A stretch of 64,000 bases of DNA from Gyromitra esculenta (taxonomy: Eukaryota > Ascomycota > Pezizomycetes > Pezizales > Discinaceae), in contig JBCAML010000017.1 of the NCBI GenBank assembly GCA_038503075.1, positions 1,488,001-1,552,000 on the forward strand. Direction: 5' to 3'. Below are positions 908-51,602 of the stretch, in pieces. The position numbers and the translations under genes are program-made. The notes below the pieces were generated by a model. The model saw only the letters and a list, made by a program, of their open reading frames with translations. It was not told the DNA's origin and did not search any database. The first letter of the stretch is position 1; each line of letters opens with the position of its first letter.

Positions 908-3900
908 TTATATAACCCTTGGTGCTGCCATGTAAATTTCATCAAATCTTTCGATCGCTGCCACTGGCATCTTCTCCTCTTCCTTCCTATCCCATTTGAA
1001 CGCGTCCTCCCAAGCCTCTACAAGGCCGAGTAGGTCCCCTTGACCCCATGTTGTCTTCACCTCACTCCATGCTTGTTCTGGTGATGGCCCAGACTTGAAC
1101 GTTGGCTGCTGCGTTACCGGTATTTCAGGTGTGTGTGCCGTGTAGTTATTTTCGAACACTGATTGCTTCATGGCTTCTGCAGCCTTGAATCGCTTTGGTG
1201 GTAGAAGGTCCCAGGTTGCAAGTGGCGCGAGAGCAAGCACGCCGGTCATTAGTTCAATGGTAGGAGAGTCGCCGGAAAGGAGTGTGGAGATGTTGTTGCC
1301 GCTTACTGCGGGATCTTCAGCCTCAGAGTCTGTGAAGTATTAGTGTATCGGCTCCGAGGCGTGGAATTTTCGGATAGGGAAGGCTTACATGGACCCCAGA
1401 CTGAAGTGGGGAGATTGCTCGTTACTTTCTGCAGACGAAACTTGCCAACCGGCACATCTTTCCCGCCCTGCTTCGCAATAATATTGATATTCAAAGTAGA
1501 ATCTATCGAATTGACATGCATCGGCTTGAGAGAAATACTGTTGTTCTTGAATGCTACTGCAGGCAGACCTGGTTCCCCATATGTTACCTCACTAAATGCG
1601 ACCTTACTCTGAACTCTGAACGCGAATGGTCCAGCTCTAACAACCCACGGCAAATTGCTGCTCCCTTTTGTATTCGCATCCACCTTACTGGGCACGGCTC
1701 CGGATTCCAACAAATGCATTAGTTGCGGCTTATCCGATTGTGGAGCATCGGCAAGACTTTGATCCAAAAGCTTGACGAATTCGCTCCACCCTAACGCTGT
1801 AGGCCTATTTTTGCCAGGACCAAAGTGGCACGAGAATCCAAACATGCAGAAGTCAACATGTAATGTTCCGGAAAATGGTGGCCCTTCGATTTCTAGCACC
1901 GCAGAGAGATCAAGTGATATGTGAACGGTCAACAACCAGAGATCCTTAGTGTAGCTTATGTTGACGCTCACGCCAACCTCGCCGGTGAAGTAGAATGGAT
2001 TGAAATTGATCAAGAAGTCGGCCCAGGCGCTGAAATTTGCGCTGACCGGACCGCAATGAACAACAGCAGAAAGATGTGCGCCGCCCATGCAAACCTTTGG
2101 AGTTAAAGCAAAGTAAGAATCTCCGGTAATGCTAATATTGTTGTCTATATTGGCCGAAATCCCTAGGCGCGCTGGTCTTGGATAGTAGCTTGGTGGTCGA
2201 TATGATGCGTGATATCCCCCGACGCTGTATACCCAGTCGCCCTTGTATGGGCTTCCTGAGAACCAGCAATATAGTGCGAAACCGCCAGATAACTTGCATG
2301 AAGGAGTCAAGATGAACGAGTTCGGCGACAACTGACCATCGATCTGGAGGGTACCCTTTTCAAAGTCTAAAGAAGCAATGATACCTAATTCGACATACAC
2401 AAATGGTTCAGGTGAATTATTTTTTGGCATCGTTGCTACCGCGTCCCCGAAGATGTTGAGCACCAGCGTAGGGTTAAATTCCATTACCACGGCAGCGGTC
2501 ACCTTCAGCAGTTCAAAAGCAGTGACTGTGAATCCTACTGCGATCCAAAATTTATCTTGCTCATTGACAACCCACCCTGTATTTTGGCTGCCGCCAGCTG
2601 GTGCGCTGAAGTAGTTAGTCAACACAGACAGTGGATCACTAGGATCAGCGCTGCCCCCGAGATCAGCGATTAGTGGGAATTGGTATATGTTATCGAGTGT
2701 TGGATTTACAAGGCGAGAATTATATCCGAATCCAAGCTTCACACCCGTAATTTCCGCAAATTCCAATTCTGCCAGTGGCCCATTAAGCTGCGCAAAGACG
2801 AAAACTGAATGGAAGGTACTTCCGCCAGGGGGCTGTTGGGTGCCTGAAGGGACTACCTTCCCGCTCGCATCGACATAGACATCTCCGTATGAGCCCACTG
2901 CCATAAGCGTATAAGGTGGTAATCCGACGATACATCCACCAGAGTACATAGATCCCTTTTTCTCGAACAGACCAGCAAGTTCAAGTGGTGGGTTTTCAAA
3001 TGCTGCCGCAAGCCCTTCGATACTGATGATAGGGACGATACTTGTTAGATCGTCAAGCTTTGTCGTGTTAAGGTCAAAGCCGATAGAGAACCCTATTATC
3101 TCAAACTCAACAGGACCTAATTTGCATCTGGCGTTTAGTGATAGGGAAAGGATGTTGTCATTTAGCCCAAGTCCGACGTTACTTATCTTCAGTGGTCCAA
3201 TGGTCTTCTCCAGCGGTGCTGTGGCAGGATCGCCGCCAAGTTTTTGCGACGCTGAGGGGTTTGTCTCCGGGGAATGGTTTTTGGATGCTGAAGGATTTTC
3301 CTCTGAACTTTCTGGGTCTTCTGTTTTGTGGCCAAACCGATAATCTAAAACCACCGTGTCGTTATCTACAACCATAAAGTGAAACCCAGTAGTAATAACC
3401 ACATCTGAGTCCTGGCCACTTCCAGACGCCCCCGCACTCTTCTTCGAGCGCGGCTCCTTATACCTCAAAGGTCGATCTTGTTCTTGAACTAAGGGGTCCC
3501 TTAGCAGCGCCAGGTCCTTTCTCGTTAACCCAGCAGCAGTATCGTCTTTGTCGATATGTACCCAAACGATATCCATTTCGGTAAACGGTAGCCCGATATC
3601 TCCGGCAATCGGTACCGTCGGTAGTTTTGGAAACTTGTTTACTGAAAAGGTAACAACCCTTTTCGGTGGTGGTGGTTTCGCCCCAGCCACTGATGTGTGG
3701 TACTGTATTTGGAAGAACGTGAACCTTCCGCCATCCCCGAGGCCAACGCTCAGTTTAAAAACGAGTGCGGTGAGCTCCGAGCCACGCATCTGGACGACTC
3801 TTAAGCCCTCAAGTTCCGAGCCACCCTCGAGGGGCTGAAGTTTTAGATCCATGAAATCCGGGATCATGTCTGCGATACTTGGACAGATACTCTTAATCAT

Positions 3901-6900
3901 TGCCTTGACCGAAGAATTGGGGCTCGTTGCTCCAATTTGCGCAGAAAACTCCCAACCCTTTCCATCATTACCAACACCATATTTGTAATCCAATTCAAGC
4001 TCTAGATCGCCGAGAGCAAGGATCCCACCACAATCGAAGTATGTCGGGGCTTTCCCTCCGTATTTATAGTGCACGTATAGAGACCTAGTTTAACCTTGTT
4101 AGATTAGGAGGTTCTCCTTTCGATAGTGGGTATAAGTACCTGATATCAATATCCTGTAGCATATTCATCATCGAATCACTGCAAGCCGGATCCATTAAAC
4201 TGTACAATGCGGCAAAATTTAGGTTTAACGCAGAAGCAGAAAACGTCCACTTATCAGTCAGGCTATACTCAAACCACCCATCCAGCACTGCAGTTTTGAA
4301 TCGGCTAGTGAGGTCTCTCGGATGCAGGCTGATTTTCGTTTCCAGTTTGAGAGTGAAATCTTTCGCAGTTTTGCTATGGTAACATTGAGCATATACCTTG
4401 ACTTTCGCAGCCACAAGTGGAGGGACATCCTTCTTCGCATTCTTGAAGGCTTCCACGTCACATCTAATTTTACCGGTGAAACTGATAAATTTTGGGCTGA
4501 GCTGTAAGTCTAACGCGTAAACATCGAGGCTAATACCATTTGGTGGCTGTTCAATTTCAACTCCAGGGATAAGCTTAAGTAATGGGATACTGGTTGCCAG
4601 CTTCTTCCCTGATACGAGACTGACGATGGGAATATCCAAATATTTCTCATACTGCGGAAAAAGTCCCTTTCCACTCAATGCTGGCGACCCTGGGGGAGGA
4701 TCCGGAGATGAGATCGGTGTTAGAAGCCTTGCCCTGAATATATTTCCGGGATAATGGTACCCGATCAAGAATGTCACTTGTTCGTCTTTTCGTTCGCTGG
4801 AGTTTAGGAAGTCGGCTGGCGCCTCGAAGTCGATGTTAAACCCTGCGATTTTAAAGCCGTTGGGATCGTCAGTTACGGTAAGCACGATCTCCCGTAATTT
4901 GATATCGCCGGCCCACGCAGGCATAAAATCCCCAATTTGGGGAAGTTTGAGACCCGGGATCTTTATAGCGCTTGCCAGAAGATTGAGTAGGTCACTGACA
5001 GACATGCTCCCTTGACTGTTGTTCCATTGTAAACGGATCTCCGCACAGTTGTGGCGAAATGTGAGAATCGTAGTGAATTGGGTGTTCTGGGTCTTGATAT
5101 CACATTGGAGGATCAGCTCCGGGTCAACCTTGCTCGTTATGACATCGGCTTTCGTAGTGGTTAGTCGCGTGACTTTCTTTTTGCCAATGATTCGCGGAGG
5201 TTCGGGGATGGTTATGTCATGGAAAAAGTTTTGCAGGAATTTCTGAACTGCACTCGTCGAATCGTCTGTCATCTTGAATTGCAACCGCAAGAAAGACGTA
5301 CAGCTCGCGGACGGAGAAAACCAGAGGGCATTCCTCACATCAGCCCCGTGTTCGAGCTGTAGATCAATTTCTTCCGCCACAAGTCCGAATACACCAACGT
5401 TACTACCCGTAGAGGCTGCAGATTTCTGGCTGCCACTCCCCTTTTGGAACTGGAATGCCTGAACAACGGTTAGAAGAGTGATCTTTGGCGGCGTCTTACT
5501 CGACGGGTCAAGACCCATGACGAGGACTGAAGTGCCTCCAGGCTCAGGGAGAACTATGCTTTCAAATTTGGTCCAGAAAGATAGGTCCCATTTGGGAGAG
5601 GAATCAGAAAGTGCCAGAGTGAATACACCACCAATATGGGATATGGAGAGCCCGTCGCCAATAATATACACAGTCTTTGCCGCGAACCCAGAGGTCTTGA
5701 GCCAGCAAAACATAGGATCGTGATCCAAAAGGAACGTTTGCCTATCAGAAAGGGGTGCATCAATCAAGCCAATCTGGCGTCCAGGGATGGAATGGAGGAA
5801 ACTATCCAGCGGGGTGTCGATCGCGGCAGCACGGAACTGAGGCTGGGGGTCCCCCGATATAGTTTTCGGAGAGATACCTGAGGCAGTATAATAAAACGGA
5901 GTAGGTGAGGCAGCTGGAGGGAGTGGATTATGTGGATCAGGCGATGCCTCCACTGGCGGTAGTTGAATGTTTGGCGGCATAAAGCCTACTGCAAGTACAG
6001 TGTGCCTAACATCTGTAGGTTGTACATTTCCTTCTCCATCTACAGATGGCCCACTCTCGTCCTGAACCCCCTCTGACTCCGACTCCAGGTTTGTTGCTTC
6101 GAACAACTCGCTTAGGGGAAATAATTCATCTAGCTCCTCCATTTTTGCCTCTGAATAAGGTCCGAAATCCTGTACCGCCTCCACCCCAGCAAAGCCGTCT
6201 TCCGCCGGCGCTGCCCATTCCCCTCCTCCCTGAAAGGCCTCCACCCCACTCTGTTCACCGCCAAAACACTGACTAATCATATATGTCAACTCTCCTTCAG
6301 ACAACTCCGTTTCATTCACACCGTCTTCATTCTCATCCCGCTCGCTCTCATTTTCTGGTATAGTCTCCGGTAATAAACCCGAATCCGCATTCTCTATTAC
6401 CATACCACTATCAAATTTCATGTCATCCGCCGAGGTCCAATCGAAAGGAATTAGTGAGATCGTCACATTGTCAGTGAATTCGGTATCCACCACCTCTGCC
6501 TCGTGCACGTTCCCAGCTTTTTTGTATCCCCTGAAATATATATTCATATTCGCGTCCCAGCGGGCAACGAAATACTCGATTTGGTCTTGTACAAGAATGT
6601 GTTGAAAAGTATTCTCATCATGTCTGAGTCCCATCACCTGGCTAGATCCGAACGGCGAACACCCTTTTCCCGTAGTCGATATAAAGTCCCAAAACTGGCT
6701 GCATTTGTGAATGGTCCAGAGTTTTAACTTGTCTGCTGATGCGCCTGGGAGAGTATCATTAAAGAAACCTGCCCAACGATCGGGGGTCCGGGTGCGGATT
6801 GCGTTGTGAAAAGGCTGGTAGGCAGTTTGTCCTTTATATGCGTCGACGTTCATCCTCTCAAAAACGGGCTTAAGGGAGGTTTTCAGATCCTTATATGCCA

Positions 6901-8172
6901 ACCAGTGTGGCCAGCAAGTCGCATGTACAAATTGGTTGGCGCCTCTTATACCCTGAAATTGATCGTAAAGGGCAGTGAGAGTGAGGATTGTCTCCCATCC
7001 TATAGTATAGAAGTTATATGAGATGGAGACTTCCCAGAACTTTAGACGTTTCTAGAACACTCACTTGGATGTCCATACTGGGTACCAGCGCTAAGAATGA
7101 CATTCATTGGTTGTAGTGCTTCAAAGAGCTCTATGGGATTGTTGTAACTTGATCCATGATGGCTAAGCTTCATGAGAGGTATCGACACATCCTCAGACCT
7201 GGGGTTCATCCATTTTGCTAACTGTCTATCAACATCACACTCGGCATCTCCAGAGAAATAATGGAGTGGTTTCCCATTCGGATCGAGGATAACACACGCT
7301 ATCGAAGATCGGTTCGAAGCAGAATGGGAGAACTTTGAAGGCATCATATTACCATCCGTACCAATACATACCGCATCGCCGGCGATAATGAACAATCCAG
7401 GGGCGCTGTGGTACAAATCGGAGACGTAATGGTTGAAAGCCTTTCGTAAAACAACGGGGTCCGTGATTTGTTGCATAGTGGTGTTATCCACTATGGTCGA
7501 AGTCGTGGTGAATAGCTCTCTCCCGATATATGCTCCGGCAAAACCTTGATTCCAGTAACAGAGCCTACACAGCTCGGGAACCGATTTGTAATTTGTGGCA
7601 CCGGCATTACTGTTCTTGTTGAAGGCTTTTTTGACGTCGATACCCAGCGTGAATCCGACTTTATCATATTCAAACCTTACGAGAGAGCCATGATACGACT
7701 TTGCCTTTCCCTTCACAGAGCTTTCGTTTTCCGCCCAATGCGGAGCATAGAACGTCGTCAAACAGTTCTGGTATGTTCCTAGATGTGCTCGACTTTGATA
7801 CTTCATGTAGTTGCAAATCAGGTTTTTGGGGTTAACGTTGACGCCATTTTCTTGCTGGCTCTGTATCTGGGTCTGTATATCGTTGGCTAATAGGGTGATG
7901 ATTCCGCCATAGTGATCACTGTCCCAGTGGGTAACGACGATGGAATCGAAGCGAAACTGGCCATCGGGACAGTCATAACGGTCTTGCAGTGTTTGGATGA
8001 CCCCGTAGAGGTTACTTGGGCCAGCAAAGCGTTTACCGCCGTCAACAAGGACGGCGTGAACGAGGACGGGCTTTCCGTTTCCGCCTTGCTGGGGGTCACG
8101 CGAGAGAAGGTGAATGGCAGAGTCCCCAGGACCAACGTTGATATGATAAGAGGAAAGCGCCCAATCGGTCAT
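908..8172 (-). CDS. Giant MBL-fold hydrolase fused to DUF6603-like C-terminus (about 2361 aa)
   Basis: Predicted exons on the minus strand are 8172-7065, 6999-4140, 4084-1389 and 1329-908. The introns use GTGAGT, GTACTT and GTAAGC donors, and all phases agree. Residues about 10-90 look like a ComEC-type metallo-beta-lactamase: HINVGPGDS, LVDGG (42-46) and the metal motif THWDSDHYGG (81-90). FSGDAE (about 306), LSHHGSS (about 336) and YGHP (366) complete the fold. The middle is low in recognisable motifs, with an acidic stretch near 550-700. The C-terminal third contains features I associate with DUF6603 (roughly residues 1600-2130): long beta-rich, glycine- and phenylalanine-rich sequence with FALTPKVCMGG, ADFLINFNPF and EGPPFSGTLHVDF. 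No signal peptide or membrane segment is evident. The MBL part probably hydrolyses a phosphoester, but its substrate is unknown. Without the introns the locus breaks into four ORFs, so cDNA is the key test. Confidence 0.72.
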
Positions 8173-9228
8173 AATGGGAGGCAGGTATTTGTGGAGGGAT
8201 TGCGGGCTATTCGCATCTGCAAACGGACGAATAGATTAGAGATATATAGATTCTTTCTCGTGATCGATACAGATGCTCCGCTGATGGATATCTCTCGATG
8301 TAGTGCTATGGACATGGAATTCAAAGAAGGCAGATCACGATATGCCTGTCCCCATCTCCAGTGTTTAAGATGTCTGACCCCCACATAGCTCTTGTCCAGC
8401 TCCCAACGGGACTTTAGTGATGTTGGCAGAGACTGGTGTAGAATGTGTTGGACAAACAGCTGCACGCAGATCATTGAGGAGACGCAGGACCTCTAGCACA
8501 CGATTTGGAGCTTGTTCGGATTTCAACTGACCAAGCCGCCATCGCTTGCCCCTATTGCCCACCGGGCAGTGTATGTAGGAGCGGGGTATGCATTGAACTC
8601 TGAATTGAGTATGGCATGGGGCGCGAGGGCATAGAGTAACAAGAGCACGGCATGGTTAGAGTATTCAGCACTTCTATCGTGCATTTGGTGGCGCCGAGGA
8701 AATGTCGTTCGAAAAGAGTACCTACGTAGTCCAAGTGCTCTACGCAGAGTACCTTCTCAGCTCTACAGCTGCCGTACGACCCCGCGTAGATAGTGAGCCC
8801 CACCTGTTGTAGGCAGAAAGACGCATGATGCATGCAGAGCGCCATCTACTCTAAAGTGCTCTACTCTAGAATATGGCCTCACGCGGTAGGTGGGGCTGAA
8901 GGACAGGCAGGCCCCACCACCCCACATGCTGAGGCCCCCTGAGCGATAACCCTGTATGCACCATCTACACAAAGCGACTGTCCCTATCGGCTCAGCTCTG
9001 CCCTGCATACTCAGACATACACACCTACATGTGGCTGGCAGCACTACCCTGGTAGGAAACATAAGGAGATATGTAGGAAGTTAGACGGTCCCGACCCTCG
9101 AAGTGCTGCCGTTCCCCAGGTGTGGTTTTAAAGAATTTCATAAAGCATACCGTAGATCTCAGTTCTTCCCTAAGGATTATCTTCTCCTCTCTCCTCTATC
9201 CCAGCCTAGTCCCTACCTTGTCGTAAAC
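8173..9228. promoter_or_regulatory. Shared divergent promoter region of the giant-gene cluster
   Basis: About 1.06 kb separates the start codons of the minus-strand MBL-DUF6603 gene and the plus-strand giant gene, so it probably contains both promoters. It is rich in small palindromes. An 8-bp inverted repeat (GGTGGGGC at 8889-8896, GCCCCACC at 8911-8918) can form a hairpin, and AGTGCTCTAC occurs near 8736 and 8851. ORFs in it look like chance. I recognise no known factor site. Confidence 0.45.
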
Positions 9229-12200
9229 ATGGTGAGTGTCATTATTCCTATGCTAGTATCAGCATTTCACCTTAGTCCTCCAATTTGCGAGGATAACGCC
9301 GACAACCCTTTCTATCTCGCCCCCATAACCCAGCCTGATTACAGCTCTATTCGTCTCGACCACGCCAGTATCGCCCACGACGTTCAAGACCATATCGACC
9401 TCACCAACACCAGGCCCGCAACAGCGAATAACCGGGTTTACGATATTTCAACCAACAAGCCCCGTCGCAATAGACTCGGCATCATCCTCCACTGGAGTCT
9501 CCCAAAACCCTTCCGCTGGGGCACAAGCGCAACCGAATCCGGCGCCAAAAAGGAACAAACAAGTAACAACCGAGGACAAACGTACGAACCAGATCCAAAG
9601 ACACTCCAAGACCCTAGCTTCCCATCTCCGCCAAATCGCTGGCTCGTCATCCGCAGAATCGACAAGAACTCGATTGTCCCCCAGGAGCCTACGTTTCCAG
9701 AATTCGACGCCTGGGTCGTTGAGTCTGACCGGATACGCCATCTCTCGGAAATTGGCCCAGATGTTGACCTAGAAACTGATGTTGTGCCGTTCATTAATAG
9801 CAGGATTATGCTTCCAGGCAATGAGAGGGAAGACAGGGACCCGATCAACGTGCAGGGAGAAACATACCTAGGATACCGGGCACCAGCGGAGAACTGGCGT
9901 GAGGTCGATGCCCCGAATCCCTTCAGGAAACATATCAAGGGCATCCCAGATCGTGCCGATCTAGGCGTGCTGACGAGTTCGAACCCTTTTTTTGCGGACT
10001 ATCAACCGCATTGCTCTAACGTCTTCAGCATCACGGATACTTTCGAATACACTGTTGATCTGGGAGATGGAAAAAAAGAGAAACGATATCTTGATAAGGC
10101 GGATGCCAGTTACTGTGTCATTGGTTGGCACTCGACCGCAGGGGAGGATCTCTTTCTGGGTCTTGATATGACGGTTGATCCAAAGGAGGATGATCCGTAT
10201 AAGAAATATTTCAGCGCTCTCGGAATGGCCGCTACGGTATCATCGAAAGATAAAGATGAGTGGGTGAGTATGATTGGAAAGGGAATGAATCCGGCGACCT
10301 TGAGTGTTGGCAGGATTTATAATGTATCTTGGCAATTTGATTCTAAACCTCAAAACGTTTGACCCCCAGTTTCTATTAAAGAGTCCAATTCATAACAATT
10401 GAGTGAAGATGGGGGGAGATGAACTCAAGCCCTTAAATATTACAATCCTTTTTTTATTGTCCAAGAAATCTGAGACTGACTTGTTGCAGCCCTTCCGCAT
10501 CACCAAGGGGTCCGAATTCAGCCAAACCGTGCCGATTGCTGTTTCGACGACTGCTAACTGCGCGGTTAAAGTCTTTCAAGATGGCCTTCCTATTAAATCC
10601 GTACCCTCGTCAGAAACAGACGCCGAGAAACCCTGGGGAAAGCTTACCGAGCAGGCGATGCTCCAAGCGGCATCCGCCGGTAACAATGGTGGGGTCGCAG
10701 AAATGGATAAAGCCAAGGAGTTATTGGAGCAGAGAGGAATGTGGCGGCATGATGAAGGGGGTTCAAGATGGAAGGTTGACGCGCTGGGTAGCCCTCCCAT
10801 CAAACCAGAGCCTGTGAAGAGTGGAGGAGTCGTATCCCCTGAGCCCGTGACTGGGACAACGCCTGCGAAGTCTGGACCAAAGTGGAAGAATTTTGCAGCA
10901 CTGGTGAAATCACACCAAGATGCTATTTCGGGCAGGAAAGGGACTTGGAATGGTAAGGAAACAGCACTGGAAATTTTAGAAAAGGTGAATACGTGGCAGC
11001 GACATCTAGACACGCTTAACCGACGGAGGAAGCACACGCAGTGGCTTTTATTTGCAGAATGGTGGAAATGGATTGCAGAAGAGCATCCGGAGGTAGGAAA
11101 GCATGCACCTGACGTCATTTCTCGGGAGACAACCGTCCACTCTTTGGTCTCAGTGATAAAAGATTTAGAGCACAGGGTGTACACCCTTGAGAATCGAATT
11201 ACCCAGTCAGTTAAGGAGCTAGAGGAGAAACATGAAGTGCCCTGCAAAAAAGTCCCTGCTGAAAGATTCTTCACCCCGAAAGATCCATCGCTATTTATCG
11301 CTGGTATCCCGAATCCGTGGCCGTCAGACTACAATGAACTCCTACCAGTCCGTCTCAGCTCACAGCTTATAACTTCAATCACTCCTCCAGACTCCCCGCC
11401 AGATCCCCACCCCTGGGAAGGGTTTTCAGAGTTTCGGGAAAAGCTTAAAAGCTGGGAAATCTTGCCCTACAAATTTTATAGCATTGAGTGTGCCATCTTT
11501 GATGAATTCGCAGCACTCCGAGTTCGGGATCAGGCCGTCAGTCAAGGGTTGGAGATACAACCAGCCAGTGCCATCCTTCCTCACTATTACGGCCCCCCAG
11601 CTGAAGTGCTAGGTACGAAGTCCAACGATAATGAGCTAGTACGGAAGTATGGGTATAGCTACTGGAACAACACCCAGCCTTTCTTCCCACTATTCTGCGA
11701 GTGGGAGGCAATGTACTTCCACATCCCATTCGAGCACTGGGAAGCACAAGATGGGGCAAGCTCGATCGCAGCGGATATGAAGACTATGCGCTACGGTATC
11801 AGCGACAAGTCAGATCTCCCGCACATCAAAGACGCCAGAATGCTATCCGGCCGGAACATGCTGCTCCCGCAGACAGGCCAAGCGCTTGCCAATGATTTTT
11901 CGCGGTTATTGGATAAAATGACGAATGACGAAAAGGCTTCGGCGATTAATGCGGCAAATCCTTCGTGGCCTGACTTGATGAAGAATATTCCCATCATGTC
12001 TAGCTCCATGAAGGGTCTTCGGGCACACCTGACTACGAGAGTTTCCGCCACGCATATTAAACCTACTATTAGTATCCCAGGGAGGGCATCAGTAGCACTC
12101 CCTGATGCAGCTGAAGCGGCAAAAGATATTGGTTTCATAGGCAAGCGAGGTGAAGAGCTTGTATCATTAGTCGGCGATCAAACCGGGCTGACACCATACG

Positions 12201-13771
12201 GGAGTTTGATCGAGGTCAACGAACAATACTGTCCATTTAAACCGGTATCCCACGGACAAATGGTGCTAACAAGATTGAATATCGTTGATCGATTCGGACA
12301 AGTATTAACCCCGATTGGACCCCAGGGCGGGCCGAAACCAAGGAATGCCCCGCTTTCATGGATTTACCCGTGTATAGGCGAAGAGTTCAAGCCCTCTATG
12401 ATCACATTGAAAGACGGGACTACCGCTCCATTGACCGTCGTACCTGAACTTGAACCCGGGAAGTGTGGCGTTATGCAGCTGCCGCCGGGACTGAATCAAT
12501 CAGCGAGGATAAACGGGTGTTTTGTAATGTCCGAACCGCTAAATGGCGGCATTGAGTGGAGACCAGCAAATGATTGGGAGAACCCTGTATGGGGATGGCT
12601 GGTCGTCAATTATGCAGATTATGGGCTTCAGATATTCAATCCTGATGGTATACTCTCTTACTTTTCCTCCGTGCGATTGAATCTATAATTGAACCTACCT
12701 GTAGGAACATTCCACTGTGAAATTCGGCTCGGCAGCCCAAGCGGCGTCTCACAAGGTGCCAGAAGACTCAGATTTGGACAGAAGTCCCATAAGTCCAAAC
12801 CGAGCCAACTTGACCGCCTGGTCAAGATGCTTGACGATGAACACTCTCTTAAATCCTTCTTCGCAGTTATCAACGGCGCAATATCAAACACTTCGCATAC
12901 GCCAGAATCATATGCAAGTTTCTTGCAAGGATTGATAGGACGGCCTTTTGCACTAGCCAATATGGGTTGGAGCTTGGAGCTTGCTGGTCCAGAGTTTGTG
13001 AACCAAGCTACCTCAGCGATCCCGCATCCAGAGAAGAAAATATTAGGCGAAAAGGGGTACGAGTTCAAACTGAAACTCGGTGACCGTGAGAAGAACTACG
13101 ATGGTTTGGCAGGATATTTCGCGAACCGAAAAGGGTCTGGCCTAGATTTATCAGAGTTATTCACTTTCTTTCCACCAGACGAATCTTCTACGGAGCGTAA
13201 TAAAGACCCGAAGGTCATCAACACCACTCGTATCACCTCTTCAACATATCCTAAAATCAGACCTTATTACCCTTCCAACGTAGAAGAAAGTGGTTCAGCT
13301 AAGCAGCACAATCGCGCATTACACGTCTTTGGCGCAATCATTGACCCTTTCTCAAGCGTGCACGCTACGACAGGGATAGTCCCAATGAGTGCGATAAAAC
13401 TACATCCATGGATTGTCGAAGTCGCGATGCGTAAGCTGGCTGCATTTTTCCGTCTTGGTCCGCTATTAGTGACTAGCGACCTCCCCACCCCGACGGGGTA
13501 TCTGGATGATAAGCCCCTAGAGACGAAAGCAGCCAGTAGTGATAGTAAACCTGACAGCGGCAGTAGTGCGAAAGTGAAGCTGCCAGCAATCACTTCAGTT
13601 GACAATTGGACGTGGCTGCAGCCATATTTTGACGGCAAAGCTACACGGCTCGCAGAGGCAGGTTTGGAAAAAGGTGGCAATGAAGTAAAACCGGCGTGGG
13701 AAAAAGCGCCGTATACAGCGCTAGAGGGGTATTTGCAAGCAACATCCAAATTTGTAGATGTGCAGAAGTAA
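9229..13771 (+). CDS. Giant uncharacterised protein, bacterial-like family (about 1450 aa)
   Basis: Predicted exons are 9229-10356, 10490-12647 and 12705-13771. The second intron (donor GTATAC at 12648, acceptor GTAG at 12704) removes an in-frame TAA. The first has a weak donor (GTTTGA at 10357; 10324 GTATCT is an alternative). Motifs in order are LHWSLPKPFRWG (about residue 88), PNRWLVIRRID (about 133), YCVIGWHS (about 294), CEWEAMYFHIPFEHW, then CPFKPVSHGQMVLTRLNIVDRFGQ and GWLVVNYADYGLQIF. A helical, possibly coiled-coil stretch lies near 590-625. I recall the same kind of motifs (NRWLVVR, FNP..AG...LTRLR.VD.FGQ, P.CGWLLPN..D..L.IYD) in large bacterial proteins of unknown function. There is no signal peptide or catalytic motif I can name. 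The start is uncertain: ATG at 9229 is followed directly by GTGAGT, which could be a splice donor. Confidence 0.65.
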
Positions 13772-14258
13772 CTAGGTTATGGCTAGTGGGTAATTTATAG
13801 CGCCTTGACTATACATGGGGATTTTTATAGAACAATGTAGATGGGTGTGGTGGGGCAATTGACCACCCCGCCAAACTTCGTGCAACCACCAGTTTTTGAG
13901 TTGTGAAGATAGGCGAGACCCACTTCCCTGTTGAAATATATAATCTTTGTGTAACCCCACGTATCGACTGGAGGGTAGCTATGTCTGGTATTGGGCCTCA
14001 AGCCACTGAACTTGTTCGTATCTCAGCCGTGATAGCTATAGCGGCTGCCTGCCATGAATGTTTGTGACTGCCTCAGCTGATGTTGAATCACAATGGATAG
14101 TTAATTACCTCTTTACAGTTGCATTGCTTAAGCAGCTGACACACATCTGACCTCAATTTCTATACACCCGGCCACTGTCTCCCATAGTCAGAAATAGGAT
14201 CCGTTTGCAAAGGCAAATCCCACAAAGGTCCAAACCCCTCCGAGAAACCCCACCCACG
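13772..14258. other. Intergenic spacer between the two plus-strand giant genes
   Basis: About 490 bp hold the 3' end of the upstream gene and presumably the promoter of the next. I see no coding frame, repeat or RNA gene. Confidence 0.45.
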
Positions 14259-17200
14259 ATGGCCGCAATTGCTCCCCGCCATAGAGTCCTTCGCAAGCTC
14301 CAGGGCCAGCTTTCATCCACCCCCAGTGGTGGCGAGCCAGGCGAAGGGCCCAGCCTCGAGGCCGGAGAAATGCAGCTTTATTCCTACTACCTCCCGTCTC
14401 TGGAGGCAGGCCGCACCTATGAGATTCACGCAAACCAGACAGTCAACATATCAAACGGTGAGGTACATAAATTTGGAACCGACGATCAAAGTTCAATACT
14501 CCAGACTTTCCAAGTCTATGCTCCGCGCACCAAGCTCGAGGAAGGAGACATCCACAGCGTTTATCCTTTGCCTGGCCATCCAGTGTCCGGAAGAATTCTT
14601 CCGCACATCATCTTTAATGACCCACACCTGCCGTGGGAGCGTTTCGCCCAGGGTCCACCGCCAGAGAGCAAGACAGCAGGCAGAGTTCCGTGGTTAGCGG
14701 TCATCGCGTTTGAGCCTGCAGAGTTGCAGCTGACGGACAGTCAGTTAGGTGCAGGTGGGTTGTTCGCGCCAGGCGCGAAGGTGAAGCAGTCAGATTCAAT
14801 GGCCGTATCGTTGAATGCTGGGGACGCAGCAGGTATGGCGGGCAATGTTCAACTCCCATTCCCCAGATCACAAGACGCTCCCGACAGTATTGATAAAGCA
14901 ACGTTGTTGAATATGATCTTTTTGGACCCTGGCCTAGCATATGCGTTGCTCGGAAAAGAAGCGCAACCCTTCCAGCCAACACCGGATTTAGATAAGTATA
15001 AGTATTTTTCACACGTGAGAAATGTGAATACAGAGGGTATGGCAGATGCAGGGGTCCAGGACCAAGGCCTATTCAGTGTTTTGGTGTCCCATAGAACAGG
15101 ACCATGGAATCTCGATAAGCCAAAGACCGTAATCGTACATCTCGTCTCGTTGGACGGAATGGCTCATATCGCTCTCCCGGATCCGAGTGACTCGAAGTCA
15201 TCAGGAAACAAAGTGGGATTAATATCGCTGCATAGCTGGGCTTATACATGTACTCCGCCGGAGGGTTTCGACTTTGTGGATACCATGGCTGCCTTAGGAA
15301 AGCAGAGTGAAATGACGCTCCGCTTGCCAGACGATCAAATCAATAAAATAGTAGCTTCTCTTCCGCCGACCACAAAACCAGACATCTTCACTGCGATGAA
15401 CGACCGCCTAACGGCCGGCTACACTCTTCTTCGCCATCGGCTTCCAACAGGCGAACCTACAGTTTCCTTTTACCGCTCTCCGCTGACGCCTTTTCCTATC
15501 AATCAATTCTCACAACCGGACTGGCCTGCACAGTCGAACTTCGGCACGGACTACCAGATACTTGATAGCAAAGTTGGTGTGATGGACATCAGCTACTCTG
15601 CGGCGTTCCAACTCGGAAAGGTCCTAGGAATCGCAGATCCGGCTTTCCGCGAGTGCCTAACGCGGGTCCGTGGAGCGCTATACAACGCAGCACAAGAAGC
15701 AGCCGCAATCCATGTTTATGAGGCAGATAACAAGTACTGGAAAACTACGGATGTGGTGGGTGCGAATGCGATTACGCAGATGTTGAACTGTCTAGATAAA
15801 CTTAACCCCGGATCTGAGGTAGCCCCAGATTGGGCGAAGAGGTGGATGAGGTCGGAGCTGGATGGCACAGCCAGAAAAAATAAAAGGCTAACAAAAATGA
15901 ACGACCGTTTTTTGGGCACCACGTTAGCACAGGAGATGGAGAAGCTGGCAGGTGTGAAGCTGACGAATAGTCTACAATCCCCACCAAACGGTCCCAGAGA
16001 AACTCCATATAATGAATTTAATCAGCCGTACTCTACTGATTGGGCAAATATTGTCAAATGGCTCATGGACTGCCTTTTCTTATCAAACATTCCGGCCCAT
16101 TACCTAATTCCGGAGCCTGCCTTCCTCCCCCAAGAAAGTCTTCGTTTCTTCCATATTGACCCAAACTGGCTTGACTGCCTCATTGACGGCGCACTCAGCC
16201 TTGCCAACCACCTTGACCGCGACGACGATATAATTCGACAATCAATAAAAATAGCCTTCAACAACTACCTTTCCACCCCCATTGCTGGCAAGATGACCAC
16301 GCAAATCCCATGTTGCGGTTTTTTCATCCGTTCAAAGGCGGTGAAAGGTTTCCCGGATCTCCACATCAATATCAAATGGCCAGATTCTATCTCACCGCCA
16401 CCAACAGCAGCGGACGTTCTTCGCATGGAACGCCTCAACGAAGATTTGTTGTTTTGTCTCTTAGATCGCCTTCCTGATGATCCTGCGTTGGCCTCCATTA
16501 TCATCTCTCAGCCGTCGCACCAACAGTGTTTCTCCCTGGGCGAGGCTCTAACCGCTTCTCCGCGATACCTTGAATTCGCGGTGAAAAGGTTATTCCAGAC
16601 CGATACAAAGCAAGAAGGGTGGGGATCATTTTCGCCGTTGAAGTGGAAAGAAGGCGATCCTCGTTCTCCGGCGGCTCCGATATATGATTGGGATACGAGG
16701 GTGATCCTCGTTAAAAACATGGTGCAAGCGATGCTCAATGATCTGAGGACGATGAAAGAATTTGCAGGAAGGGCGCCGCAGGATGAGTTAGATACATCAA
16801 TCAAAGCGCTGGCATGGCCATATGAGTGGCTTGACAGGCCGGTGTTCCCCGTGATGGACGACGAGCTTGCTAGGACGATGACATATATGTACCACACCTT
16901 CGTAAAGATAAATGGTCTTTCCGGGGAACCACAGAAGCAATTGCTAGCAAGCACGATTCCGCAACTGAAAACATTGTTTAAGAAACCGCTTCCTGCCTTG
17001 GATACTCTGGAAGCTTATTCTCAAGTCCCAGTGGGCGGGGAGGTAAACAGCGCGTTTGTTGGATTACAGCTGAACGACCCTATTTATAGCTTAGAGATAA
17101 TCAACCGAATGGCAAGTAAGGATAAGAAGGAATGGGAGCAGGCGATAAGGAAATTGCCAGTGGGGAACCCAACCACCGACCGAGGGAGCCCTTCGGATAC

Positions 17201-17996
17201 TCTTCCGAACCTTGGTGACGGTGATGATTCAGGTGAGCCATTCGATGCGTTCAGAAAAATGCCACAACCGGCGAGGAGAGACAATGATTCTTATTCATTC
17301 AAATGGAGCACTTACTAATCCACAAATTACCTTCAAATTTTAGATCGAGAACGAGTTCCCCGAGACCCACCAAAAATTCAGGAACCTTCGCTACCTACTT
17401 TCCGCGCGCCTCACTTCCGCCCTTTCCGTGGAACTCCCCAGAGTCTCCCTGATCCCAATCTCAAATACGGTATCACAGATTCGCAATTCATCATTAAGAT
17501 CTTCCCTGCCACATCCGCCGGCTCAGATAGAGGTCCCTTAGTCCCAAGCCTGAACTACTTCACCGACATTATCTTCAGCATTCAGCGCAATCCTTCCGGA
17601 GACCGCAGCACGGTCCTAAACCTTGTTTCTCTCACGGTGGATATCCCTATTGGAAGACCGGGTAAACACCAACATAAGAACACGAAACTCACGACATCTT
17701 ACACTGGGAGAGGCGCCAAGATGTTGAGCAATCAACGATTCAGCACCTTTATTGCGCATCCAACGGGCGAGAGTCCGACTGGGACGATGACAATTACAAT
17801 ACTGCCCAAGATGAGGGGAGAAGGCGTGGAGATGCTAAAAATCCCGGAATTATCATTTCAGCTGTTGGATGTGGCGGTGGAGGACGGCGATAGCCCGGTA
17901 CCATTTGAGGTTGTGGAGAAGTATGAGCATGGGAATGGGATTGTGACAGCGACGACATTCATACACGTGGAGAGGCTTAGTCAACCCAAACCATAG
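14259..17996 (+). CDS. Second plus-strand giant uncharacterised protein (about 1208 aa)
   Basis: Two exons are predicted, 14259-17232 and 17344-17996. The 111-bp intron has a GTGAGC donor and a TTTTAG acceptor, and phase 1 is kept across it. Without it the first ORF ends at 17318 and the C-terminal 217 codons are lost. Motifs seen include IHSVYPLPGH, LPHIIFNDPHLPWERF and VPWLAVIAFEP near residues 100-150. Then come YSAAFQLGKVLGI (about 446), NIPAHYLIPEPAFLPQESLRFF with FHIDPNWLDCLIDGALSL (about 615-645), and CGFFIRSKAVKGFPDL (about 686). I recall very similar strings (LPHIVL..TLPWER, AWQLGRLLAL, FNYLVPDE..LPPESIRFFYLD, SGFLLRS..V.GWPGL) from large bacterial proteins without assigned function. 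No transmembrane segment or signal peptide is seen. Lying 487 bp downstream of the 1450-aa gene, it probably works with it. Confidence 0.7.
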
Positions 17997-19171: not shown

Positions 19172-21274
19172 ATGCGCTACACGTTTTCTTTACTTGCCTT
19201 GCTTTCCGGAGCCGCAGTTGGCCAAAACTACTCCACAACAAATCTCGTAGATGTGGATATCGCCTCGGCGCCTAACAATACTCTGTTCACCAGATGGAGA
19301 CCAACTTCACATTTTATGGTGAGTTGTGTGCCTTAAGCTCCGCGCGCGATGCTAACTGGGTATACAGGGACCCCATTCATGGATGAACGATCCTTGCAGT
19401 CCATCGTACGATCCCGGTTCTGGATTATACCATATTGTATAGATCCCTCTCCAAGCTAGATATTGACGAAGGAAGGTCTAATATTTATTTAGATGTATCA
19501 ATGGAATCCACACCATATCAATTGGGGTAACATCTCTTGGGGCCACGCTGTTTCCAAAGATCAAGTGACGTGGGTCGACGCTGGAGGTTGGGAAGACAGC
19601 CGTGCGAAAGCTTTAGGGACTGGTCCCAATGGCACCTTCGACCATCTCGGGATCTTCTCGGGGTCGGGTCAGTTTCTGCCTGCAAACCAGTCTTATGGTT
19701 TTCCTGGCTTGAATTTTGCGAGCGGGCCCACGGAGGAAACGATCATGGTCGTTTTATATACCGCGGTGCAGCATCTACCAACGAGTTGGAGTATTCCGTA
19801 TATCAACTCCACTGAAACGCAGTTTGCGGTCGTTTCTACCGACGGTGGGCTCACGTTCGATAAATTCGAGGGTGAAGGCGTCAATCCCGTCATCCCACAA
19901 CCACCACCGAGTTTGAATATCACAGGGTTCCGCGATCCTATTTATGGCAAATGGCCTGAGCTGGACGATATTCTATTTGGTGATTCCTCGATAGGCAACT
20001 TTTACTCCGTTTTCGGCTCTGGTATCAAGGGATTTGGAGGCCGCTTACCGCTCTATTACGCTCCTACGCACGATTTGACCGACTGGAGATATCTTGGGCC
20101 CCTTTTTGCTGCTCCGCCCAATGGGACTTGGAGTGAGACTTACTCTGGTTCGTACGGCTATAACTTTGAGATGGCCGGCGCATTTTCTCTCACGGAGCTG
20201 AGACAAGATGGTGGCGACGATGAGTCTGTTCACAATTTCGTGATAATGGGAACCGAAGGAGGCAACACCACCAAACATCCATCACTCCAGTGGGCGCTCT
20301 GGTCTGAGGTAGCAATCACCCGCTCCGCCAAGAATGGATCAGCTGAAAGTGAAATCTTGTCTTCTGGCGTTCTTGACTGGGGGTCTTCCTATGCTTGGAA
20401 CTGTTTCTGGGACACGCCAAAAAGTCGGAGGATTGCATATGGCTGGGCAAGGGAAGATATGAACGTAGCCCAGACAGCCCAGGGATGGCAGGGCGTGTTT
20501 ACTCTTCCTCGTCAGTTGTATGTCAAGGTCTACGAGAGCATCAAAAACACGAATGGCATCATTTCGCAAAAGGGGTCCTGGACTTCTCAGCGGAGGGCCG
20601 ATGGAACATGGAAGGTGAAAACTTTGGGAATGCAGCCTGCATCGGAGGTCGTTGAATCTTTGAGAAAGGGCGCCAAGAAGACTTCTGTAGAAAAGACAAC
20701 TGTCCAGGCCAACAGCTACACCAGCATCGATGCAGATAGTCTCTCGGCCAATATCCATGCAGAGATTGATCTTCCTTATAACTCGACTATACCCGTTGGT
20801 TTCGTTGTTCGCCGTTCACCTGATGGCGAAGAAGAGACCTTGATCGTTTATGATCCTGTCGCGCAGGAACTTTCTGTCGTCCGCGAAAATTCCACCTCTC
20901 TAGACTCAGCATATACCAACACCTACCCGAACGTAGCACCGCTGTTTCTGCTAGACTTCCAGAATAGCAATGGTAACTGCTCCGACCCTAGGAGAGAAAC
21001 ACTCACACTGGACATCTTTGTCGACAACTCCATGATTGAAGTCTTCGCGAATGAACGTGTGGCCATCACTTCGCGAATCTACCCTGCAAGGATTGACTCG
21101 ACTGGGATTGGAATGTGGACTGGTGAGGGCGAGGGTAAAGCTACTTTTAGAAAGGTCGCTGTTTGGACAGGGTTGAAGAATGCCTTTCCAGAGAGACCAG
21201 CTAATAGCAGTACTGCTTTAGTCTTTGATACTCCTGAAGAGACTGGAAACTATGTCTGGTGGCCAGGGAACTAA
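19172..21274 (+). CDS. Secreted glycoside hydrolase family 32 (invertase/inulinase type)
   Basis: Exons are 19172-19318, 19368-19436 and 19493-21274, giving 665 aa. Introns of 49 and 56 bp have GTGAGT...CAG and GTATAG...TAG ends. The second exon carries the family's nucleophile motif (WMNDP, Asp57) and would be missed without splicing. Further signatures are GFRDP (Asp about 220, transition-state stabiliser) and YNFEMAG (Glu about 298, the expected acid/base position). The C-terminal part has the beta-sandwich motif DIFVDNSMIEVFANE. The N-terminus MRYTFSLLALLSGAAVGQ is a clear signal peptide and there are many N-glycosylation sequons. It should hydrolyse (or transfer) beta-fructosyl units from sucrose, inulin or levan outside the cell. 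The FEMAG context in place of the usual WEC leaves the exact specificity open. Its neighbours suggest no pathway cluster. Confidence 0.92.
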
Positions 21275-35747: not shown

Positions 35748-36131
35748 TTTCATGGATGACTGTTGTTGTTGTTCGTCAGATATAAGGTTGCGAGTACGTT
35801 ACGTTGTTCCTTATGCTTTCTTTGGGTTTCACAGAATGAATGTCTTTGTCATCGAACGAGTTGGGATGTATATGTCGATTTCCTCTTATTGTACTTTTCT
35901 TCTTCTTTCTTTAAGAACGTCTTCTATTGTCCACTCGTGTATTACAAAATACAAACCTCGGTTATACCTCATAACCTTACGCTGTCGCTGTCCTCAAGTC
36001 CTCTATACTTGAACACTTCGTAGAGCCTCGCGAACTCCGTAAACACTCTTGTTGCCTGCTTTCCTCTTCAAGAAGACTGCTCATCTCGGGGATACCCGAG
36101 AACTTGAAGCGAGAAACCTCGCCCCTCGAGA
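35748..36131 (+). repeat. 5' LTR of gypsy-1
   Basis: Begins TTTCATGGATGACTGTTGTTG-like sequence and ends CTCGAGA. It shares AACGTCTTCTATTGTCCACT and most of its 3' half with 41051-41457. It is followed by TTACGTTGCTTCC, comparable to the primer site of gypsy-2. Confidence 0.82.
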
Positions 36132-36359
36132 TTACGTTGCTTCCTCATCCACACCCTCTACCCCGCTTTTTTACGCTGTCACATAAACCCCAACGCCGCC
36201 ACGAGAACCCCGCCTGCCCCTGACCTTCCCGACCTTCGAGAATTTCCAAGCTGCCGCCAACGCCGACCTCGCCTCCGCCTACGAAGAATTCGATCCCATT
36301 ACCAACAACGGGTCGACAACCTCACGTATGCAGACCTACAGCTGGAAGAGGCTGTACAG

Positions 36360-37290
36360 GAACGAAACAATATGACGGCAAGATTCAATACCTGCCAATC
36401 CCAACTACAAGCAGCAGAAGCAGAAATCGCCCGCCTTCGTAACGCCGCCCCCACCACCTGCACCATCGCCACCACCCCCTCCTGCTCACACTCGCGAGGC
36501 CGCCTGATAAGATGCCTGACCTGCAAGTTCAACGGGTCTCGCGATAAACTCCCTGGGTTTGTTCTACAGCTCAGGTCAAAACTCCTTGCGTTAACGCCGA
36601 TCGATTTTCCAACAAAGAACAATATGATATTGTATGCTATCGCCGTCTTGAGTGAGCCGCCTCGAACAAGTTCGCCACTCCGTCCTTCCCGACGAACTAC
36701 CACGCGAACTCTGCCGATTTGATCACCGCCGAAACAGCCTTCGGCGATCCCGACCCTCTCGGCACTGCCCGCCGTGAACTGCATCAACTCCGACAAGGGA
36801 AGCGGGATTTCTCCGCCTACTCGCCGACTTTCAACGAATCATGGGACGTCTCAACCATGACGAGTCGCCAAGAACGACGCTCTAGAATCCGGTATGTCGG
36901 ACGAGTTAAAGGAAGCAGTAGTAACGGTCGCCGACTTCCCCACCACCTTCACTTCCTTCTGCGCCTTTCTTCTCCACTTGGACAATCGCATCCAAGCAAG
37001 AAGAGAAGAAAAGAAGAATACTGCCCGCAACACTATGGGGCAATTCACAGCCCCTGCCGCCGCCCCCGCCGCCTATACTCCCGCTTCCTCCTCCTTCGCT
37101 CCTGGAGGACTCGTTCCCACGATCTCTCCTTTGGCCGAACCTCCACCTCTCGTCCCGCCCCCGAACAACGATGCTCAAATAAACTAAGAAGGAAATTATC
37201 TCCTAAGAAAATCCTGAGACAAACCAATAACCGTTGCCTGTTCTGCGCCGAAGCGCCATATCTTCTCAAACTGTCCCTCCGCCTCCAAGC
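36360..37290 (+). pseudogene. gypsy-1 gag remnant
   Basis: Split over several frames. Recognisable pieces are FNGSRDKLPGFVLQLRSKLL (about 36527-36590), matching the gag of gypsy-2, and a cysteine-bearing NRCLFCAEA at about 37215 in zinc-knuckle position. Confidence 0.65.
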
Positions 37291-37579
37291 CGTCCCGCCA
37301 TGAGTGAGTCACTAATACCGCCGCCGTACTCCCAGCCTCCCTCTCGTCTTTCCGCCACCTTTGCCACCTCGTTTCCTGCCTTCGATGCAGCAGACTCAGT
37401 TGAGTCTTTAAACTAGTTCAACCGTAGTCGCCATGCGACCCTGCTCTGGTTTCGTTTTCTCCTTTGTCACGTTCTCTATTTCTGGTTTTCCAGTCGAATG
37501 CACATGATGATAATTTGGATTTAACATTTTGTAGTTTCATGTAGCCTTTCCCACCAAAATAAAATCATAAAAACACACG

Positions 37580-39440
37580 CACTTCTTGACACTCGCCTCA
37601 GGGTTCGCTTTCATTGATGAAAAATTTGTGCGTCACCATTCCCTTCCCTTATCTCCCCTAAAAACCCCTCGCCAATTGGAAGTCATTGACGGCCGAACAA
37701 TTGCTTCGGGAGATATTACAAATCTTTGCCACCTAGAGCTTTCCATCCAACAAGACACTGAGAAAGCCCCTTTTTCGTCACCAAGCTAGCCATTACCCCC
37801 TAGTGCTCGGTATCCCCTGATGAATCTCCATGACATCCATCTACAATTTGCGAACAAAAGCATTGAATTCAATTCTGAATTCTGCACCACCCACTGTGCC
37901 CCCAAGAACCCGTCGTTTCAGCCGCCGCCATTCCCCTCCAAAGAAAGCTTAAACGCGTTTCATTGGCGCAGCTAGCTTCCGCATGCTCGCCAGGAAAAAG
38001 GGTACTCAAGTATATTCCATGTCCCTCTACGAAATCAATAGAGTCCTCGATAGCAAGACTACCAAGGAAGAGTGGAGACAACGAATACCCGCCGAGTACC
38101 ACGAATACCCTGATATGTTTGACAAAGCTAAAGCTCAAGCGACTCCCTCCCCGACGACCTTATGACCATAAGATCACCCTGCAAGAAGGCAAAGAACCAC
38201 CATTTGGCCCTCTCTATGGTATGTCACGAGATGAACTTCTAGTTCTCAAAAAGTATATCGAAGACAACCTAAAAAAGCGATTTATCCGCGCGCTCATCTT
38301 CCGCCGGTTCTCCAGTCCTCTTCGCCGCCAAACCCGATGGTTCCCTCCGCCTTTGTGTTGATTACCGTGCGCCTTAACGCTCTCACGGTTAAAGACCGAT
38401 ATACTTCCCCCGATCAAAGAAACGTTGGACCGTCTCGCAAAAGCTCGCGGTATTCTAAACTCGATCTCCGTGACGGCTTTCACCAAATTCGCATCGCTGA
38501 GTGAGAGGAATGGAAAACAGCCTTTCGAACCCGATATGGCTTATACGAATATATGGTAATGCCATTCGGCCTCACCAATGCCCCCTAACCTTCCAACGCT
38601 TCACAACGACTCTCTCGAATACTTCGATCTATTCTGCACAGCGTATCTCGACGATATCTTGATATACAGTGATACCCTCGCGAACACAAGGTACACGTCA
38701 GGCAAGTTCTCAACGCCCTTAGAGCTAATAACATTCTTCTCAAACCTGAGAAGTGCGAATTCCATGTCCAATCAATAAAATACCTCGCCTAATTCTTACG
38801 CCCGAAGGAATCAAGATGGACGAGACAAGCTCAAAGCAGTGCGCGACTGGAACCGACCCAAATGTGTCAAAGATGCTGCAAGCCTTCCTAGTTCGCAAAC
38901 TTCTACCGAAGCGTTTATTCTGTGATTTTCTCGCCTCGCGCCCCTCATCGCCTTCACAAAAAGGCATCACCTTCGAATCTGACTGTCGGTTCCTGAACTC
39001 GCTCGAAGCCCTAAAGACCGCGTTCACCGGCGCCCCTGTACTTATCCACTTTGACCTCGAAAAAGATCTTTGTAGAATCCGACGCTTCCGACTTCGTCTC
39101 CGGCGTGTTCTCTCCCAACTTGACGACACGGCGTACTTCACCCCGCGCATTCTTCTCCAAGAAACACTCACCTGCCGAACGCAACTACGAGATCTACGAC
39201 AAAGAGCTCCTAAAGAATCATCCGATGTTTTGAAGAATGGAGACCAGAGCTTGAAGGATCGTAACTACCCATCTCAGTCATTACCGACCACAAGAACTTG
39301 GAATATTTTATGACTACCAAGAACTTAACCGACGACAAGTCGATGGGCTGAATATCTTTCACGTTTTGATTTCGTCATCACCTATAGACCAGGGGTACAA
39401 GGAGGAAAACCGGACGCACTGACTCGAGATCGGGAGATCT
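37580..39440 (+). pseudogene. gypsy-1 protease, reverse transcriptase and RNase H remnant
   Basis: Protease flank GFAFIDEKFVRHHSLPL starts at about 37604. RT pieces include GRTIASGDITNL, the [20 protein letters not shown] segment (about 38200-38260) and a [11 protein letters not shown] active-site motif near 38643. RNase H is marked by [12 protein letters not shown] near 39070. At least six frame breaks are present. Confidence 0.8.
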
Positions 39441-39569
39441 CCCTGAAGAAGGGGATGAAAGACTAAGACACCAACATCAAGTAGTCTTAAAGGAGAAGAA
39501 CATTGATCCTAAGTTGAGTTTGTTTTCGGGTTCTTTATCAAATGAACCCGCTGAATTGATGCCTCCCTC

Positions 39570-51170: not shown

Positions 51171-51175
51171 CAATG

Positions 51176-51598
51176 TCTCAAGGAGCGAGATCTCGTCTAT
51201 CCTCAAAGGTGAGCAGTCTACTTGAACTAGCGACAGGAGTTTAAGCGATGATTCCATTACAATCGAAGGGAGTTCGGATGACTCCGACAAATAAACTACG
51301 TTTGAAGTAGTGGCGTGATAGAAAGAGAGGTATCACGGAAACGACGAAGGATTATGTGGGAATCCCGACTTGTTTTGTAGGATACAAGTAGAGTGACAAT
51401 AGAAGACATTACTTAAGCAGAAGAAGAAAAGTACAACAAGAGGGAAAGCCCTTCGCGTATATACTAAAATTCCAGTTCTTACGATGACAAAGACATGACT
51501 CATTGTAACGAAAACCCAAGAAAACAGAAAGAAAGATAACGAAACGCGACAACCACGTACTACGTACCTGTCCGACCAACTAACAACCATCTACGAAA
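51176..51598 (-). mobile_element. Solo LTR in the LINE 3' part
   Basis: 423-bp LTR, starting on the plus strand TCTCAAGGAGCGAGATC and ending CTACGAAA. Flanks CAATG (51171-51175) and CAACG (51599-51603) are a 5-bp duplication with one transition. It carries the shared TCTTCTATTGTCAC block on the minus strand. Confidence 0.78.
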
Positions 51599-51602
51599 CA
51601 AC

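Follow-up and report, generated by a model that had tools for sequence, protein, structure and literature searches.

Three giant genes at 908-17996 of a 64-kb stretch of the Gyromitra esculenta genome (positions 1,488,001 to 1,552,000 of contig JBCAML010000017.1, assembly GCA_038503075.1; hereafter the window) form one unit with a bacterial link, and this conclusion is well supported. The first gene, g1, joins a metallo-beta-lactamase (MBL) domain to DUF6603 and is divergent from g2 and g3, which lie in tandem. An earlier sequence-only reading had placed here three neighbouring genes of about 2361, 1450 and 1208 amino acids (aa) with six introns, in divergent and tandem arrangement, and this layout is borne out by open frames, a splice model and homologue alignments. 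With evenly balanced confidence, we favor the reading that the window genes descend from a bacterial operon with the core order DUF6603 > g3 > g2, and that this operon is a polymorphic-effector conflict apparatus; the payload, recognition, membrane and conflict roles in this reading are ones that we infer.

Linkage of the three families in bacterial genomes

A scan with the g3 alignment over one genome per species (84,980 species) returned 83 relatives, of which 80 loci were retained, in bacteria and two archaeal records. These loci are partly redundant: L043 and L044 are opposite ends of a single chromosome, and three loci come from one SAR324 metagenome-assembled genome (MAG). Using g1 and g2 profiles built for this analysis from at most 30 sequences per family, we found g1 in 71 and g2 in 74 of the 80 g3-chosen loci and all three families in 62, with 60 of the complete loci ordered g1 > g3 > g2 on one strand (L079 and L091 start with g2). 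The bacterial g3 is frequently split in two, and some of the missing genes reflect contig ends (e.g. L037, L051, L054, L064 and L066).

Because the 80 loci had been picked through g3, linkage was re-tested in two samples totalling 326 genomes: 176 from the family around Chitinophaga and 150 from the genus of G002 (Streptomyces noursei, L017). DUF6603, g3 and g2 occur in 16, 11 and 9 genomes of the Chitinophaga-family sample and in 19, 12 and 10 of the Streptomyces sample. Once weak g3 rows are removed (G059 and G076 in the former; G270, both of G272 and one G207 fragment in the latter; E-values between 1.4e-12 and 9.5e-4), g2 and g3 occupy an identical set of genomes, every one of which carries DUF6603 (hypergeometric 3e-11 and 8e-11). 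In an adjacency count that likewise omits these rows, every g2 place, 9/9 and 17/17, has, on its own strand, g3 no more than 1.5 kb and DUF6603 no more than 12 kb away (26/26); these numbers include the centre genomes, themselves found via g3, and become 8 and 14 places without them. The usual order holds at 24 of the 26. DUF6603 follows g2 in G017. The second G309 place, truncated upstream by a contig end, qualifies only via the DUF6603 of a neighbouring copy. Linkage in both samples leads us to reject a chance cluster of the three families.

The sequence-only reading had held that the three genes act together, and would have given this up had the families mostly been found alone. For g2 and g3 the opposite was found at all 26 g2 places, but DUF6603 is more independent: g3 lies within 4 kb at only 8/19 and 17/28 DUF6603 places, leaving 11 in each sample without it, and in G272 a g3 fragment occurs in the absence of DUF6603, both of which speak against full mutual linkage. 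The many DUF6603 places lacking a nearby g3 point to other DUF6603 forms, often of about 1150 aa in the Chitinophaga-family sample. A form without g2 was seen in G018, G059, G069, G076, G079, G091 and G136 of that sample and in Streptomyces G270, with open frames of about 1140-1230 aa in most (756 in G136, 1612 in G270); in G059, G076 and G270 a marginally g3-like frame of about 1000-1150 aa stands beside DUF6603. This form may be a sister system.

The distribution is patchy, with up to four complete copies in one genome (G249), and extends to plasmids, where 72,556 records contain g3 in 8 and DUF6603 in 11. Annotated plasmid records label the genes "DUF6603 domain-containing protein" and "hypothetical protein". 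On the Paenibacillus polymyxa plasmid p-YT9A (L100), a gene for a baseplate-like protein and one for a GH-E family nuclease were observed about 8-9 kb from the operon.

Origin of the fungal genes

Trees were built for the DUF6603 core (189 sequences), g2 (104) and g3 (73), in which the fungal clade comprises 41, 39 and 35 sequences, metagenome proteins being counted as fungal. In each tree this clade is separate from every bacterial sequence with support of 1.0, and the nearest bacterial locus in all three is L070, from a Saprospiraceae MAG (pairing support 0.898 for DUF6603, 0.976 for g2 and a weak 0.222 for g3). The roots of these trees were assumed, and the direction from bacteria to fungi is drawn from two features of the bacterial genes, their wider spread and their operon order. 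A single fungal group per tree and a shared nearest locus make one capture of the whole operon by fungi, followed by spread and scrambling, the likeliest history to be read from the sequences, which strengthens the earlier suggestion of horizontal transfer. Fusion of MBL to DUF6603 is already present in the operon of L081, a gammaproteobacterial MAG with gaps of 13-17 bases between genes; L081 is not sister to the fungi.

The Gyromitra genome (47.1 Mb) contains one further DUF6603, one further g2 (36% identity over the longest piece) and one further g3 (39 and 48%). All three lie together on contig C6, from 2317151 to about 2336600, close to where the contig ends (2346138), and an MBL exon again precedes DUF6603. 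The order differs from that of the window, with g2 on the minus strand and g3 and g1 on the plus strand. Two diverged sets of all three families in one genome make a chance cluster unlikely. A retroelement gag-like frame, recognized by eye, stands beside this second set near the end of C6 (L011, 8718-9899).

By the names listed, g3 occurs in ascomycete, basidiomycete and chytrid fungi. Locus tags in Amanita phalloides place g3 (002208) between two g1 genes (002206 and 002210), and a Fusarium prediction of 3863 aa (P0195) contains a g3-like part, MBL and DUF6603 in one protein, which gene prediction may have merged from neighbouring genes. The g1 and g3 listed for Neonectria punicea come from contigs that differ in length, a split which suggests less strict linkage among fungi than among bacteria; some other fungi have listed family genes with distant locus tags or on contigs differing in length.

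Gene models and protein features

The window is the final 64 kb of a 1.55-Mb contig, and all three genes are intact in it. The g1 gene (908..8172, minus strand; 2361 aa) is modelled as four exons (8172-7065, 6999-4140, 4084-1389 and 1329-908) separated by three introns (7064-7000, 4139-4085 and 1388-1330). A divergent intergenic region at 8173..9228, to which no strand is assigned and where promoters are expected, separates it from g2 (9229..13771, plus strand; about 1450 aa), which has introns at about 10357-10489 and 12648-12704. The donor of the first g2 intron, at 10357, was set by eye and by alignment with three fungal homologues, giving 1450 aa. All three g1 junctions, and the second of g2, are spanned by alignments with three homologues each. 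The third gene, g3 (14259..17996, plus strand; 1208 aa), has one intron at 17233-17343, whose junction falls in a linker of low conservation and is supported by the splice model, not by homologue alignment. Directly after the cluster, an open frame at 19493-21274 (plus strand) resembles, by eye, a GH32 invertase, and strong GC skew relative to the rest of the window was observed within 36001-40000 and 50001-52000 (-0.30, -0.20 and -0.29).

The C-terminal DUF6603 domain of g1 (PF20248; 1609..3213, minus strand) matches profile positions 1-501 of 502 in Pfam at E=4e-147 and 491.3 bits against a curated cut-off of 27, which makes g1 a full member by score. The Pfam entry describes a family of unknown function and is silent on g2, g3 and the variable genes at the operon ends. 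DUF6603 or PF20248 is named in no paper of the open-licence collection searched, which covers few subscription papers and no bioRxiv collection. The structural model of the domain is a huge, confident beta sheet of long strands with one hydrophobic face, 21 of 27 strands being amphipathic. No sequence match was found in the Protein Data Bank (PDB), and fold matches are weak, including ApoB-100 and LptD, with TM-scores of 0.08-0.16 in the best rows and poor superposition.

The N-terminal MBL domain of g1 (7000..8172, minus strand) falls under the cut-off in Pfam (0.012) and matches Avs1a in NCBIfam (7.6e-16), LmuA in PADLOC (2.4e-22) and ComEC structures in the PDB (phmmer, 1.1e-4). Exon 1 contains all four zinc-site motifs HxDxDH, GD, HHGS and GHP (HWDSDH at residue 82, GD at 308, HHGS at 338 and GHP at 367), which we take to be the motif set of ComEC-like MBL fold hydrolases. 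By its sequence, the domain is of the ComEC/Avs1a/LmuA kind. Across g1-g3, PHROGs tail and unknown families match this exon alone (1e-12 to 2e-7), and family-library scans recognize no other enzyme, in agreement with the earlier view of the MBL part as the only visible one.

Neither g2 nor g3 comes near the cut-off of any Pfam or NCBIfam family and neither has known domains; as the sequence-only reading had stated, these families, like DUF6603, are present in bacteria and are without assigned function in the libraries. The g3 model is largely confident and gave no convincing match to solved structures in the PDB. A crude hydropathy scan called no signal-like start in 55/57 g1 and 77/77 g3 proteins and a stretch resembling a transmembrane helix in 12/57 g1 proteins, the highest 19-residue hydropathy of the window g1 being 1.67. 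The same scan called 21/65 g2 proteins and the window g2 signal-like; we read this start as probably the conserved first beta strand, although g2 may be secreted. An ordinary outer-membrane porin is rejected, given the presence of the family in Gram-positive bacteria and fungi and the scarcity of signal-like starts in g1. A phage origin is not supported, since g3 has no match in phage records and none confirmed in IMG/VR (39 matches to one pattern).

Variable genes at the operon ends

A same-strand gene precedes g1 in 41 loci, and 16 of these genes were chosen for Pfam scans. Clear matches in this first slot are calpain (L022, 2.3e-8), subtilase (L091, 2.5e-21), class-3 lipase (L038, 3.1e-16) and, in Chitinophaga, a LanM-like DUF4135 protein (L053, 1.9e-18; NCBIfam LanM 5.8e-18). 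MBL occurs in L035 (NCBIfam ComEC, 1.9e-14) and, barely above the cut-off, in L067. Weaker matches are to the endonuclease/exonuclease/phosphatase (EEP) family (L061, 9.4e-5), HNH (L085, 8.8e-4) and trypsin (L029, 0.0067); motifs and profile comparison assign EEP to L015 and L052 and MBL to L050. The Pfam matches of L018, L071 and L092 are weak and uninformative, and L020 has a more distant sigma-54 regulator before g1. Upstream of DUF6603 in the two genome samples, a recognized enzyme was found in 8 of 20 stretches: subtilase in L116 (1e-44), MBL in L108 and L121 (NCBIfam ComEC, 5e-9 and 6.7e-13) and in L109 (by motif only), and EEP in L118, L119, L120 and L122 (0.0011-0.0026, under the Pfam cut-off). 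Recognized first-slot enzymes mostly lie -11 to 58 bases from the g1 start (106 in L035, 152 in L022).

A fourth gene follows g2 within 300 bases in 52 loci. Among 11 such proteins scanned with Pfam, three are clear propellers (Kelch in L023; lactonase/YncE in L031 and L053) and two are weak ones (L026 and L041), and L022 and L024 encode tail-collar proteins one gene beyond this slot. Single proteins join DUF6603 to PF00753 (MBL), PF09458, PF07819, PF00561 and PF10282, among the 120 of 161 that were listed; PF09458, PF07819 and PF00561 are presumably H_lectin, PGAP1 and an alpha/beta hydrolase. A DUF6603 type of 3200 aa (L028, L032, L033, L039, L049 and L055) has a polyketide synthase (PKS)-like gene family downstream, judged by eye from one sequence, and a lipase-family gene before it in L028, L032, L033 and L039.

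A candidate conflict apparatus and its alternatives

A constant core with exchangeable enzymes and binding proteins, patchily distributed, plasmid-borne and multicopy, has the anatomy of biological-conflict systems. As in conflict systems in general, an exchangeable effector stands beside a constant carrier, one slot holding calpain, subtilase, MBL, EEP, lipase, HNH or LanM-like proteins, several of them under the Pfam cut-off. Polymorphic toxins, including those delivered by TcdB/TcaC and PVC routes, likewise combine an invariant carrier with enzyme and recognition modules that can be exchanged, and lipase-like, subtilisin and propeller modules recur among them according to passages of PMC3482391. 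Pools of effector domains are described as common to polymorphic toxins in the same passages and to NTP-dependent conflict systems in part of PMC7159879, and sections of PMC12799240 describe MBL nuclease and protease pairs as pooled among anti-phage systems. From this anatomy and these shared pools, the fungal MBL is taken as a putative payload and DUF6603 as a probable lipid- or membrane-facing carrier. The core proteins would assemble into one complex, with the first-slot enzyme as payload, the last-slot protein recognizing the target, and the very large amphipathic DUF6603 sheet contacting lipid or membrane. In the window the payload would be the ComEC-like MBL nuclease fused to DUF6603, and a complex so armed would degrade the nucleic acid of invaders, competitors or incompatible partners. 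It may act either outside the cell, in offence, or inside, in immunity; fibre-like, propeller and lectin modules slightly favor outward action. A more specific form, which we put forward tentatively, is that DUF6603-g3-g2 is an unrecognized class of delivery apparatus spread across many bacterial phyla and some archaea, a giant single-chain membrane-engaging beta sheet or barrel with interchangeable enzyme and receptor-binding ends, captured whole once by fungi, which kept a nuclease-armed version.

Several observations weigh against a conflict apparatus. No killing or defence has been shown, and no search aimed at immunity genes was made. Library scans of g1-g3 found none of the known Tc/Rhs, injection or NTPase-sensor parts, and the SpvB, Rhs, PAAR, VgrG and sheath domains of Tc/Rhs and PVC toxins are not among the matches (Pfam to E=10, PHROGs to E=1). 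Several first-slot assignments are under Pfam cut-offs or based on motifs, 12 of the 20 sample stretches have no recognized first-slot enzyme (a shortfall to which unreliable automatic gene prediction in GC-rich genomes may have contributed), and 6 of the 11 fourth-slot proteins gave nothing in Pfam. The MBL motif is present in 22 of 41 fungal-clade g1 proteins and missing from 19, some of which are partial. For the 3200-aa type, the lipase and PKS-like genes nearby would equally fit a metabolic role.

The conflict reading has a specific intracellular version, rather unlikely in our estimate, in which the core senses phage, mycovirus or a foreign nucleus and frees or activates the enzyme of the first slot, much as in Avs, Lamassu or Hachiman, with a giant-protein scaffold replacing the NTPase. 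The g1 MBL is of the Avs1a/LmuA/ComEC kind, and portions of PMC12799240 describe such nucleases as common to unrelated defence systems, swapped between Avs1a, Lamassu, Hachiman and DRT systems. The near absence of signal-like starts in g1 and g3 and the frequency of nuclease-like and protease genes among recognized first-slot genes also fit an immune system. However, library scans of g1-g3 revealed no sensor domain, NTPase or otherwise, and sensing inside the cell does not usually involve tail-collar, Kelch or lectin modules. Nor do g1-g3 match the partner proteins of these defence systems in NCBIfam or PADLOC, the PADLOC scan covering g1-g3 themselves. Against the Avs1a cut-off of 420 bits for AVAST type 1, whose partner is an NTPase, the g1 MBL scores 57.8 bits, with no partner match in g1-g3. 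Lamassu pairs LmuA with the SMC-like ATPase LmuB; here only the g1 MBL resembles LmuA, and nothing else in g1-g3 is Lamassu-like. The curated cut-off of 220 bits for the 6A-MBL anti-phage system compares with 15.5 bits for the g1 MBL. ComEC/Rec2 is among the closest known systems, its structures aligning with the g1 MBL and sharing HxDxDH, HHGS and GHP, but g1 has no detectable membrane channel and carries its MBL fused to DUF6603 instead; the ComEC channel family is absent from the g1 exon matches in Pfam and NCBIfam, where NCBIfam ComEC covers MBL residues 299-391 only.

A lipid- or metabolite-handling machine, in which DUF6603 binds or conducts lipid and the lipase, PKS and lanthipeptide enzymes process cargo, strikes us as improbable. 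It would account for the amphipathic strands and the weak ApoB-100 and LptD matches, for the class-3 lipase before the 3200-aa type in L038 and the fusion of DUF6603 to hydrolase accessions PF07819 and PF00561, for the PKS-like genes that follow in six loci (an assignment made by eye on one sequence) and for the LanM-like gene in Chitinophaga. Long strands with one hydrophobic face are shared by the DUF6603 model with bridge-like lipid transfer proteins, AsmA/TamB and ApoB-type sheets, but DUF6603 has no sequence match in the PDB and its model superposes poorly on the listed solved proteins. That the three proteins are structural or storage proteins without payload, their variable neighbours mere hitch-hikers, we regard as very improbable: the sample stretches without a recognized first-slot enzyme would suit it, whereas the tight spacing of recognized first-slot enzymes to the g1 start, and enzymes fused to DUF6603 itself, argue against it.

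Three large families without a known function in the searched libraries thus become parts of one testable unit found in many bacterial phyla, two archaeal records and fungi, and the variable ends point to where payload and target recognition should lie. If true, the capture by fungi of a whole operon for a conflict-like system would be rare and would bear on fungal defence or self/non-self recognition.
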